Source of the DNA: Pseudomonas alkylphenolica
GTDB lineage: Bacteria > Pseudomonadota > Gammaproteobacteria > Pseudomonadales > Pseudomonadaceae
Reading direction: 5' to 3'
NCBI RefSeq assembly: GCF_000746525.1
Contig: NZ_CP009048.1
Location: forward strand, 2,907,501 to 2,971,500
DNA length: 64,000 nucleotides
In this document: positions 5,789 through 7,486 of the stretch, piece after piece
Position numbering within the stretch: the first letter of the stretch is position 1
Layout: each line of letters starts with the position of its first letter
Position numbers and translations under genes: made by a program
Notes under the pieces: generated by a model
What the model saw: the letters and a program-made list of their open reading frames with translations, nothing else
What the model was told of the DNA's origin: nothing
Database searches by the model: none

Positions 5789-5790
5789 GG

Positions 5791-5937
5791 GTGGGAGCGG
5801 GCTTGCCCCGCGATGAGGCCCTCTGACTTGTGGTCATATCCATTGGCGGCGGTGGCGCTGAGTCACCTTGGCAAATGGATATGTTCAGAAAATGCGGGGC
5901 AATCAAAGGCCTCATCGCGGGGCAAGCCCGCTCCCAC
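5791..5937. repeat. REP inverted pair (BIME) after the AraC gene
   Basis: Positions 5791-5820 and 5908-5937 are a perfect 30-bp inverted repeat of the Pseudomonas REP sequence. Between them, CATATCCATT (near 5836) and AATGGATATG form a second inverted pair. The left part of that inner element is the reverse complement of a sequence at about 6662-6693. The structure probably stops or protects the AraC transcript. Confidence 0.85.
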
Positions 5938-5972
5938 CGGGCAGATCAGATTTCACTGACTAGCCAGCACCT

Positions 5973-6068
5973 GGTCCTAGGACCTATCCTACGCAATCTG
6001 TCGGCCTCAGTAGCTTGCCCGGGGAAGGTCTTCACACTAGGCTCGCTCGGTCACTGAATATTCAGTGA
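5973..6068 (+). promoter_or_regulatory. Predicted promoter of DUF3077 gene copy 1 with two palindromes
   Basis: A perfect 12-bp palindrome, GGTCCTAGGACC, lies at 5973-5984. A weak sigma-70-like promoter follows: TTGCCC at 6015-6020, a 17-bp gap, and TAGGCT at 6038-6043. An 18-nt palindrome, TCACTGAATATTCAGTGA, lies at 6051-6068, close to the predicted start of transcription, and would form a 5'-terminal hairpin in the RNA. All elements recur in copy 2. The promoter call is inference; the palindromes are seen directly. Confidence 0.5.
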
Positions 6069-6245
6069 TCGGGTTTGGCGACCCGGACAAGTTAAGACAT
6101 CACCATGACGCTTTATGGTGGCTGTGCGCGGGAGGGCTTCGGCCCTGCCGGGTTCCTAACTTACCGGTTCGCCAACCCGCGTACAGCTGCCACCCATTTT
6201 GTTTGGCGACGAAAGTGTGGCGGCTCCACAAGTTAGGAGTTGACC
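6069..6245 (+). ncRNA. Structured 5' leader of DUF3077 gene copy 1; candidate translational switch
   Basis: Strand A AAGTTA (6089-6094) and strand C AAGTTAGGA (6230-6238) are both complementary to strand B TCCTAACTT (6154-6162). C contains the Shine-Dalgarno AGGAG, six bases before ATG 6246, so B:C pairing would hide it and A:B pairing would free it. B sits in the loop of a CCGG/CCGG hairpin (6148-6151, 6164-6167). A 16-bp helix, 6117-6132 with 6176-6191 (three G-U pairs), encloses it together with a cUUCGg hairpin at 6133-6146. The same layout with different switch sequences exists in copy 2. Confidence 0.65.
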
Positions 6246-6560
6246 ATGAAAAAGCCCGTCCCCGACCCTCCCAGCCTGCACCTCATTGAAACGCTCGAGA
6301 CCGACGTCCTCTGTTGCCCGGAACATCCACCCCTGTTCAGCGTACGTGCCGGCGTCAGTGCTGAAGATGCGCTGGTGCATGCTTCGTTTTACCTCAAGTG
6401 CGCCCGTACCACCGTTATCGAAGCCGTCCGCCACACCAACATGGTAGGACGAGGCCTGGCCTGGTCCACCCAGCATTCGGTGGAGATGGCCATGGCCCTG
6501 CTTGATGCGTTGCTTGATGCGTTGCTGGATGGGCTGGAAGAGCGACAGATGCCAGGTTGA
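6246..6560 (+). CDS. DUF3077 family protein, copy 1
   Basis: A 104-residue protein from ATG 6246, with AGGAG six bases upstream. The middle, LFSVRAGVSAEDALVHAS, is the signature of the Pseudomonas DUF3077 family, whose function is unknown. The C-terminal part carries a short internal repeat, LLDALLDALLDGL, expected to be helical. There is no signal peptide or membrane segment, so it should be cytoplasmic. The protein is identical to that of copy 2 (7058-7372), yet the leaders differ, so the two genes could give the same product under separate control. Confidence 0.85.
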   Translation: MKKPVPDPPSLHLIETLETDVLCCPEHPPLFSVRAGVSAEDALVHASFYLKCARTTVIEAVRHTNMVGRGLAWSTQHSVEMAMALLDALLDALLDGLEERQMPG

Positions 6561-6569
6561 TCAGACTGC

Positions 6570-6706
6570 TGTAGGAGCGGATTTATCCGCGATGGACTGG
6601 AAGCAGTCCCATCTTCTGCGGCCGCGCTGCGACCAAGTAACCCGCCGTAAGGGCGGAAAGGTGACTCAGCGCCACCACCGCCCATGGATATGCCCGCAAA
6701 TCCGAG
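6570..6706. repeat. REP-like hairpin and second intergenic repeat between the two DUF3077 copies
   Basis: A REP-like hairpin (GAGCGGATTTATCCGC) lies within 6570-6591. From about 6640 a different element follows: the hairpin CCGCC-GTAA-GGGCGG, then GGTGACTCAGCGCCACC at about 6660. The latter is the reverse complement, with few changes, of part of the spacer at about 5836-5869. No gene is seen here. Confidence 0.6.
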
Positions 6707-6771
6707 GGCCTCATCGTGGGGCAAGCCCACTCCCACCGGGCAGATCAGATTCCACTGACTAGCCAGCACCT

Positions 6772-6867
6772 GGTCCTAGGACCTATCCTACGCAATCTGT
6801 CGGCCTCAGTAGCTTGCCCGGGGAAGGTCTTCACACTAGGCTCGCTCGGTCACTGAATGTTCAGTGA
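6772..6867 (+). promoter_or_regulatory. Predicted promoter of DUF3077 gene copy 2 with two palindromes
   Basis: Same arrangement as in copy 1: palindrome GGTCCTAGGACC at 6772-6783, TTGCCC at 6814-6819, 17-bp gap, TAGGCT at 6837-6842, then TCACTGAATGTTCAGTGA at 6850-6867. One A-to-G change at the centre of the last element leaves both arms paired. Confidence 0.5.
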
Positions 6868-7057
6868 TCGGGTTTGGCGACCCGGACAAGCACTCGTGTA
6901 GTTCCCAGTAAGTCGTCATGTGTTATGGCGGCTGTGCGCGGGAGGGTTTCGGCCCTGCCGGGTTTCCGAGTGTTCCGGTTCGCCAACCCGCGTACAGCTG
7001 CCACCCATTAGTTTGGCGACGAAAGCGTGGCAGCTCCTTTTACACTCGGAGTTGACC
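6868..7057 (+). ncRNA. Structured 5' leader of DUF3077 gene copy 2; candidate translational switch
   Basis: Strand A CACTCG (6891-6896) and strand C ACACTCGGA (7042-7050) are both complementary to strand B TCCGAGTGT (6965-6973); B:C is a perfect 9-bp match that covers part of the Shine-Dalgarno CGGAG. The scaffold is that of copy 1: a 16-bp outer helix, a UUCG hairpin and a CCGG/CCGG hairpin (6958-6961, 6975-6978) with B in its loop. The outer helix shows a U-G to C-G change relative to copy 1. All three switch strands differ from copy 1 and yet stay mutually complementary. Confidence 0.65.
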
Positions 7058-7372
7058 ATGAAAAAGCCCGTCCCCGACCCTCCCAGCCTGCACCTCATTG
7101 AAACGCTCGAGACCGACGTCCTCTGTTGCCCGGAACATCCACCCCTGTTCAGCGTACGTGCCGGCGTCAGTGCTGAAGATGCGCTGGTGCATGCTTCGTT
7201 TTACCTCAAGTGCGCCCGTACCACCGTTATCGAAGCCGTCCGCCACACCAACATGGTAGGACGAGGCCTGGCCTGGTCCACCCAGCATTCGGTGGAGATG
7301 GCCATGGCCCTGCTTGATGCGTTGCTTGATGCGTTGCTGGATGGGCTGGAAGAGCGACAGATGCCAGGTTGA
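7058..7372 (+). CDS. DUF3077 family protein, copy 2
   Basis: A 104-residue product identical to that of the gene at 6246-6560, including the DUF3077 signature LFSVRAGVSAEDALVHAS and the LLDALLDALLDGL tail. The start ATG 7058 is preceded by CGGAG, which the leader can mask. Complete nucleotide identity between the coding copies, next to diverged leaders, suggests recent duplication or gene conversion of the coding part. The function is unknown. Confidence 0.85.
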   Translation: MKKPVPDPPSLHLIETLETDVLCCPEHPPLFSVRAGVSAEDALVHASFYLKCARTTVIEAVRHTNMVGRGLAWSTQHSVEMAMALLDALLDALLDGLEERQMPG

Positions 7373-7381
7373 TCAGGCTGC

Positions 7382-7486
7382 TGTAGGAGCGGATTTATCC
7401 GCGATGGACTGGCAGCAGTCCCATCTTCTGCGGCCGCGCTGCGACCCTTCGCGGCGGTCCGGCGTTCCGGTAAATCCGCTCCTACA
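7382..7486. repeat. REP-like inverted pair between convergent genes
   Basis: TGTAGGAGCGGATTTA at 7382-7397 and its exact reverse complement at 7471-7486 form a 16-bp inverted repeat. It lies between the rightward DUF3077 gene and the leftward YeiH gene and may act as a bidirectional terminator. Confidence 0.75.

Follow-up and report, generated by a model that had tools for sequence, protein, structure and literature searches.

What kind of RNA stands in front of two identical genes, and why do its two copies differ just where they meet the ribosome site? In a 64,000-nucleotide stretch of Pseudomonas alkylphenolica DNA (the window), two DUF6124/DUF3077 genes are each preceded by a leader in which one loop strand (B) can pair either with an upstream strand (A) or with a strand over the Shine-Dalgarno sequence (C). 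An earlier note had described these strands, proposed an intramolecular pseudoknot, possibly a riboswitch or thermometer, and gave no named family for it. On checking, A, B and C have the sequences and places it gave them in both leaders. B pairs with A or with C in both copies (nine Watson-Crick pairs for B:C, six for A:B), despite all three strands being different.

The lack of a name, in contrast, is contradicted by Rfam. A scan of the whole window returned four matches, all at the two leaders: C4 twice and c4-a1b1 twice. Both C4 matches lie well over the gathering cut-off of RF01695 (88.3 bits for copy 1 and 81.7 bits for copy 2 against 45), and copy 1 aligns to the full model, 1-87. The c4-a1b1 elements (RF03163) lie 5' of both C4s, with 56.5 and 52.7 bits against a cut-off of 46.7. 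The strands a' and b' are complementary to a2 and b2, and b2 lies on the ribosome site of the gene that follows, an arrangement that is general in the 156 loci analyzed below. Judged by sequence, the two leader RNAs are copies of the phage-derived antisense-RNA switch C4. In the nomenclature of the phage P1/P7 C4 system, A corresponds to b1, B to b' and C to b2 (Table 1). No ligand- or temperature-sensing Rfam family passes gathering in the window, where an undescribed sensor would stay invisible. Only C4 and c4-a1b1 pass, and the leader anatomy can be explained without a riboswitch or thermometer.

Table 1. Features of the two leaders and their genes, in window coordinates
Feature	Position	Strand	Remark
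Candidate promoter, copy 1: TTGCCC, 17-base spacer, TAGGCT	6015..6043	+	Self-chosen pattern; site corresponds to P1c4 promoter relative to a1
c4-a1b1 element (RF03163), copy 1	6037..6089	+	56.5 bits; includes inverted repeat from 6050
a1 box TTTGGCGA, copy 1	6074..6081	+	Complementary to a'
b1 box AAGTTA (A), copy 1	6089..6094	+	Pairing with b'
C4 antisense RNA (RF01695), copy 1	6111..6197	+	88.3 bits
b' loop TCCTAACTT (B), copy 1	6154..6162	+	Identical in L088 and L209
a' strand TTCGCCAA, copy 1	6168..6175	+	Complementary to a boxes
a2 box TTTGGCGA, copy 1	6202..6209	+	Complementary to a'
b2 box AAGTTAGGA over Shine-Dalgarno (C), copy 1	6230..6238	+	Pairing with b'
DUF6124/DUF3077 gene, copy 1, 104 aa	6246..6560	+	DNA identical to copy 2, 0/315 differences
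Candidate promoter, copy 2, letters as copy 1	6814..6842	+	Pattern match; absent from strict scan
c4-a1b1 element (RF03163), copy 2	6836..6888	+	52.7 bits
a1 box TTTGGCGA, copy 2	6873..6880	+	Complementary to a'
b1 box CACTCG (A), copy 2	6891..6896	+	Pairing with b'
C4 antisense RNA (RF01695), copy 2	6921..7008	+	81.7 bits
b' loop TCCGAGTGT (B), copy 2	6965..6973	+	Identical in L207
a' strand TTCGCCAA, copy 2	6979..6986	+	Complementary to a boxes
a2 box TTTGGCGA, copy 2	7012..7019	+	Complementary to a'
b2 box ACACTCGGA over Shine-Dalgarno (C), copy 2	7042..7050	+	Pairing with b'
DUF6124/DUF3077 gene, copy 2	7058..7372	+	DNA identical to copy 1

Between window positions 5950 and 7400, a strict consensus scan returned neither a promoter-like nor a terminator-like site. 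By eye, a terminator-like hairpin with a T run lies between b1 and C4 in L005, L006, L011, L015, L016 and P1 (L205, near 700), and in 44 of the 156 cassettes the 100 bases upstream of C4 contain a run of at least five T. Short repeats near the cassettes (window 5790-5930 and elsewhere) occur many times in the window and in the genome.

A second pairing set had been missed: the boxes a1 and a2 (TTTGGCGA) are complementary to a' (TTCGCCAA), with the same letters in both copies. Since the a boxes are identical, discrimination between the two copies rests on b alone. Four of the nine B:C positions differ on both sides between the copies. Shuffled loops reach nine pairs with the same target in only 50 (copy 1) and 35 (copy 2) of 20,000 cases each. 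The b' duplex of copy 1 reaches -12.1 kcal/mol on its own target against -6.1 kcal/mol on target 2, and that of copy 2 reaches -15.7 against -6.6 kcal/mol. In the upstream A:B pairing, the b' of copy 2 prefers its own leader (-12.4 vs -7.7), while the b' of copy 1 pairs equally with both (-5.9 and -5.9). Cofolding whole C4s with their targets gave no cognate preference (-66.0, -67.0, -67.2, -68.2), because simple folding cannot score loop pairing. The scaffold had been said to carry a compensated U-G to C-G change in its long helix. The change is present, but it is one-sided and the partner base is unchanged. The change in the UUCG hairpin is also one-sided, again with an unchanged partner.

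Is the pairing maintained beyond these two copies? Our sample takes in every C4 locus detected in six genomes, 156 in total, of which four are below the family cut-off. We compared the summed pairing of each C4 with its own boxes to permutations within genomes, with hairpin 1 as a control. The excess of own-pairing is large for every box: z = 32.0 for b2, 23.5 for b1, 25.9 for a2 and 24.3 for a1, compared to 0.8 for the control hairpin (156 loci each). Hence the central claim of the earlier note stands: strong covariation across 156 leaders indicates selection for a loop that can pair either with an upstream strand or with the Shine-Dalgarno strand. A ranking by duplex energy was our first measure and was later replaced by the summed scoring. 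It makes the own box uniquely best among the 156 loci in 101 cases for b2, 49 for b1, 14 for a2 and 34 for a1; for a2, the replacement scoring raises 14 to 56 of 156. The summed scoring, too, puts the uniquely best match of b' on its own target region in 101 of 156 loci. For the 133 cassettes whose gene belongs to one of three families, the longest runs with the own target sum to 1084, compared to a permutation mean of 808 (sd 13.7, maximum 860), and in 108 of them b' forms its longest pairing over the Shine-Dalgarno zone. Family membership, box complementarity, the position of b2 over the Shine-Dalgarno and conservation are shown at this level, from the letters themselves.

Box specificity, as far as complementarity tells, is not absolute. 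Noncognate b' runs of at least eight bases (G-U allowed) are common, occurring in 365 of 3,150 ordered pairs when the six genomes are added up, and anti-Shine-Dalgarno cores, for example TTCCT, are present in many b' loops. If only run length counts, the own target is the single best match of b' in just 46 of the 133 cassettes, and ties are frequent. Trimmed b' loops of these 133 are never identical within a genome (0/1,575 pairs, 9 at least 80% alike). This does not show that genomes actively avoid sharing b boxes between their cassettes, as identity between genomes is also rare (4/7,203 pairs).

All 156 loci include two within-genome b' duplicates, L114 = L115 and L153 = L086. L114 has lost b2, Shine-Dalgarno and start codon, and the C4 of L153 is truncated at its 3' end. 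In L016 the C4 leads straight into gene-like sequence. The loop CCTGTATCTC is near-identical in L184, L185, L069 and L077, from three genomes, with no obvious b2 beside it; genome G061 carries two C4s with a near-identical CCTGTATCTC loop 166 bases apart.

How did identical genes come to have different leaders? The genes differ at none of 315 positions and the stretch from promoter to a1 at 1 of 89; the regions that differ are b', b2 and the b1 region. Both leader types exist elsewhere. The boxes of copy 1 recur in G007 (L088) and P. putida 31303 (L209), and the boxes of copy 2, together with its form of C4, in G089 (L207); b' and b2 match at 9/9 positions each. The genes behind these leaders have diverged from the window gene, with a dS of 0.81 (L088), 0.13 (L209) and 1.63 (L207). 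Hence both b'/b2 specificities appear to be older than the identity of the genes. The b1 box is less conserved: it reads AAGTTA in L209 and partially matches copy 2 in L207, and L088 gave no c4-a1b1 match in the RF03163 scan.

The difference between the copies had been taken as compensatory change in three strands at once. As a description of the two copies this is correct, but as a history it is not, because both kinds of b'/b2 stand unchanged in other genomes. From their sequences, the copies look like two leader types of long standing whose specificities stayed distinct while homogenisation made the genes alike, rather than a recent triple change. Gene conversion homogenising the genes is the simplest account; alternatively, one of the window leaders may have been gained by recombination from a relative. 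Since the genes seem homogenised, gene identity is no clock for the age of the leaders. Within genomes, 17 pairs of cassettes whose genes are at least 90% identical could be scored, and in every one of them the b loops differ (identity 0.31-0.78). L114 and L115 form an unscorable pair of this kind that shares its loop, but L114 is without b2, Shine-Dalgarno and start. The five most similar scored gene pairs within genomes (at least 96%) are all neighbours at most 2.4 kb apart, all with different b loops. In blastn comparisons L088 shares only the cassette with the window, and L207 the cassette and nearby repeats. The flanking DNA compared is not shared; hence either the cassettes moved or the flanks changed.

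We drew the breadth of the family from searches of the own genome, a class sample and named relatives. The P. alkylphenolica genome contains 20 C4s, 18 c4-a1b1 elements at E <=0.001 (11 above cut-off), and overlapping sets of 20 DUF3077 and 11 DUF6124 matches. Five finished Pseudomonas genomes carry 42, 30, 25, 24 and 15 C4s, four of these loci being below cut-off. Across the genus, C4 occurs in 138 of 149 genomes, 137 over cut-off; 27 candidates were scored per genome, so copy counts in that search are "at least" values. Of the 143 genomes in the class sample, only the own genome has DUF3077, and six have C4: the own genome and five others with 1 to 3 copies each. Given this abundance in the genus and scarcity in the class, the C4-DUF3077 pairing looks, by sequence distribution, like a Pseudomonas expansion. 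Of the 21 loci that a protein search for named relatives found, 20 have Pseudomonas in their title, and the remaining one is from a metagenome bin with the title Paucimonas. All 20 scanned relatives (L226 was left out) have a C4 upstream, ending 48-144 bases before the matched stretch.

Behind 148 of the 156 C4s lies an ORF of at least 55 aa. These ORFs fall into groups of 104, 20 and 9, plus 15 others. DUF6124 and/or DUF3077 was found in 10/10 scanned members of the group of 104 (nine random ones and L117), no Pfam match in three scanned members of the group of 20, and Bro-N, a domain of phage antirepressors, in 3/3 scanned members of the group of 9. In L123, L129 and L175 the start of the DUF6124/DUF3077 group is joined to unrelated bodies (Bro-N; MALTG family). 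This Pro-rich amino-terminal start reads TPNPP in L123 and TPDPP in L129; L175 has HDPPY. This is consistent with an origin from phages and an exchange of modules downstream of the start codon. Two flanking genes were scanned, an AraC-type and a Cons_hypoth698 gene, and neither is a phage gene. Some genes show lesions: a one-base difference early in L002, relative to L010, shifts the frame, and early stops occur in the genes behind the C4s of L208 and L224.

Searches of PDB sequences, PADLOC, NCBIfam and the phage and plasmid collections found no match to the window protein, and PHROG gave only two weak ones of unknown function (E 0.0027 and 0.008). The predicted structure of the protein consists of two long helices (pLDDT 83.2, pTM 0.61, 20 sequences), and a search with this structure gave no PDB or viral match at E <=0.001. 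Both window copies have an extra four-residue repeat, ALLD, near the C-terminus, absent from the other 19 aligned proteins. The window genes are under purifying selection, with dN/dS of about 0.043/0.126 against L209, 0.18/1.63 against L207 and 0.22/0.81 against L088.

What would such a cassette do? We consider it very probable that the leaders are chromosomal C4 antisense-RNA cassettes that repress translation of their own DUF6124/DUF3077 genes, with C4 probably excised as in P1. The putative cassette runs from a1-b1 through the C4 RNA, with b' placed in the loop of a hairpin and a' single-stranded, to a2-b2 on the Shine-Dalgarno and on to the gene. By analogy to phage P1, C4 would probably be cut from the transcript, and its pairing through a':a2 and b':b2 would block ribosome entry on the mRNA of its own gene. 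The second target copy, a1/b1, is predicted to hold a' and b' in cis in the uncut leader, and may serve as a brake, decoy or feedback site. Repression is probably in trans. The variation of b' between cassettes favours each copy acting mainly on itself. We infer translational repression, RNase P processing, trans action and specificity set by a few bases from P1/P7 C4, for which passages of PMC12197685, PMC8546580 and PMC5320573 describe all four. It is quite unlikely, at the same time, that Pseudomonas has converted a phage immunity RNA into dozens of individually addressed switches, with the a and b boxes of the C4 cassettes as a sequence code, gene conversion homogenising the proteins while the leader specificities stay distinct, and near-identical proteins being released independently, possibly by C4-bearing phages that invade and titrate the matching C4 with their a1b1 RNA.

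Alternatively, one molecule could toggle between A:B and B:C purely in cis, as a riboswitch, a thermometer or a protein-controlled pseudoknot. Every box is on one transcript, with C4 embedded in the leader. Under plain folding of whole leaders, moreover, a1:a' and b1:b' form in both copies, and b2 stays free of C4, most of it unpaired or locally paired; the A:B form is thus the predicted resting state of the uncut leader. This folding moved a cis switch in our estimate from quite unlikely to unlikely, and lowered our confidence in the C4 explanation slightly, from high to still high. Cis pairing by itself, however, offers no reason for different boxes on near-identical genes (17/17 pairs, see above), and the leaders fully match a family whose prototype is, in the relevant passages of PMC8546580 and PMC5320573, processed and trans-acting. 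The latter description also speaks against the intramolecular pseudoknot of the earlier note, although whole-leader folding makes a cis contribution possible.

Two further readings start from the phage side, and we regard both as very improbable. If the C4 RNAs chiefly conferred immunity against C4-bearing phages, the downstream genes would be passengers. Weiss et al. 2016 raise this idea for Acinetobacter (in a passage of PMC5320573), and the P1 a' string GTCTGTCAA occurs in 7 of the 156 C4s, including four from the own genome. Yet the P1 b' core CACTAAC occurs in 0/156, the own downstream region is the uniquely best target in 101/156, and the window protein lacks a match in phage or plasmid collections. 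A shade less probable still, the cassettes might be left over from immunity regions of prophages and have no function now: C4 is an element of phages, Bro-N is present in the scanned members of the 9-member group, and truncated copies exist (L114, L153, L016). Against decay stand the box pairing kept across 156 loci, dN below dS for the window genes against L209, L207 and L088, and the presence of C4 in 138/149 genus genomes.

The C4 family itself is already known, and so are multi-copy chromosomal C4-like RNAs, described for A. baumannii in passages of PMC5320573. Among the papers listed by our searches of the open-licence literature, none links C4 to DUF3077 or DUF6124. An apparently unnamed RNA switch is replaced by a known one, amplified in a genus. 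The DUF6124/DUF3077 proteins, which have no known function, gain a likely shared mode of control: silent unless released. The Pseudomonas cassettes are also naturally occurring antisense pairs on which the evolution of specificity can be studied.

Among known systems, Sib/Ibs of E. coli also comprises many paralogues in which every antisense RNA is specific for its own target. Its targets are small membrane toxins. The RNA is unrelated to the window C4s, whose target is a predicted two-helix protein. The IsrK model (RF01394) scores the 5' part of the leaders at 33.0 and 22.9 bits, below its gathering cut-off of 50. IsrK of the Gifsy-1 prophage resembles the leaders in that alternative leader structures control translation, but it ends at a terminator (both in passages of PMC4825925), of which the scan of 5950-7400 found none, and its downstream genes are different.

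The closest prototype is immI of P1/P7. The annotated P1 record lists a1, b1, C4, a2, b2 and icd in the order of the window leaders, and the same two models score this region at 68.8 and 51.0 bits. P1 has annotated promoters upstream of a1, where the window has its candidate TTGCCC-17-TAGGCT. Fold, recognition strands a' and b', the two targets a1b1 and a2b2 and the location of b2, which lies at the first gene's ribosome site, are alike. A trait of the C4 family is excision by RNase P to about 77 bases; at the start of the long helix, copy 1 has GGT and copy 2 GGC. Unlike immI, which controls the phage genes icd and ant (an antirepressor), the window copies are chromosomal, have many paralogues per genome, and precede a DUF6124/DUF3077 gene, no antirepressor, whose protein has no match in phage records. 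Weinberg et al. 2010 list the C4 motif for Proteobacteria; a passage of PMC5320573 names Pseudomonadales. The Group 1 C4-like sRNAs of A. baumannii AB5075 likewise form a large chromosomal family with a variable target loop, apparently processed from longer transcripts (Weiss et al. 2016, in passages of PMC5320573). Their targets are only surmised there, whereas most Pseudomonas C4s have an evident cognate target directly downstream, which bears on what the Acinetobacter C4-like RNAs target.
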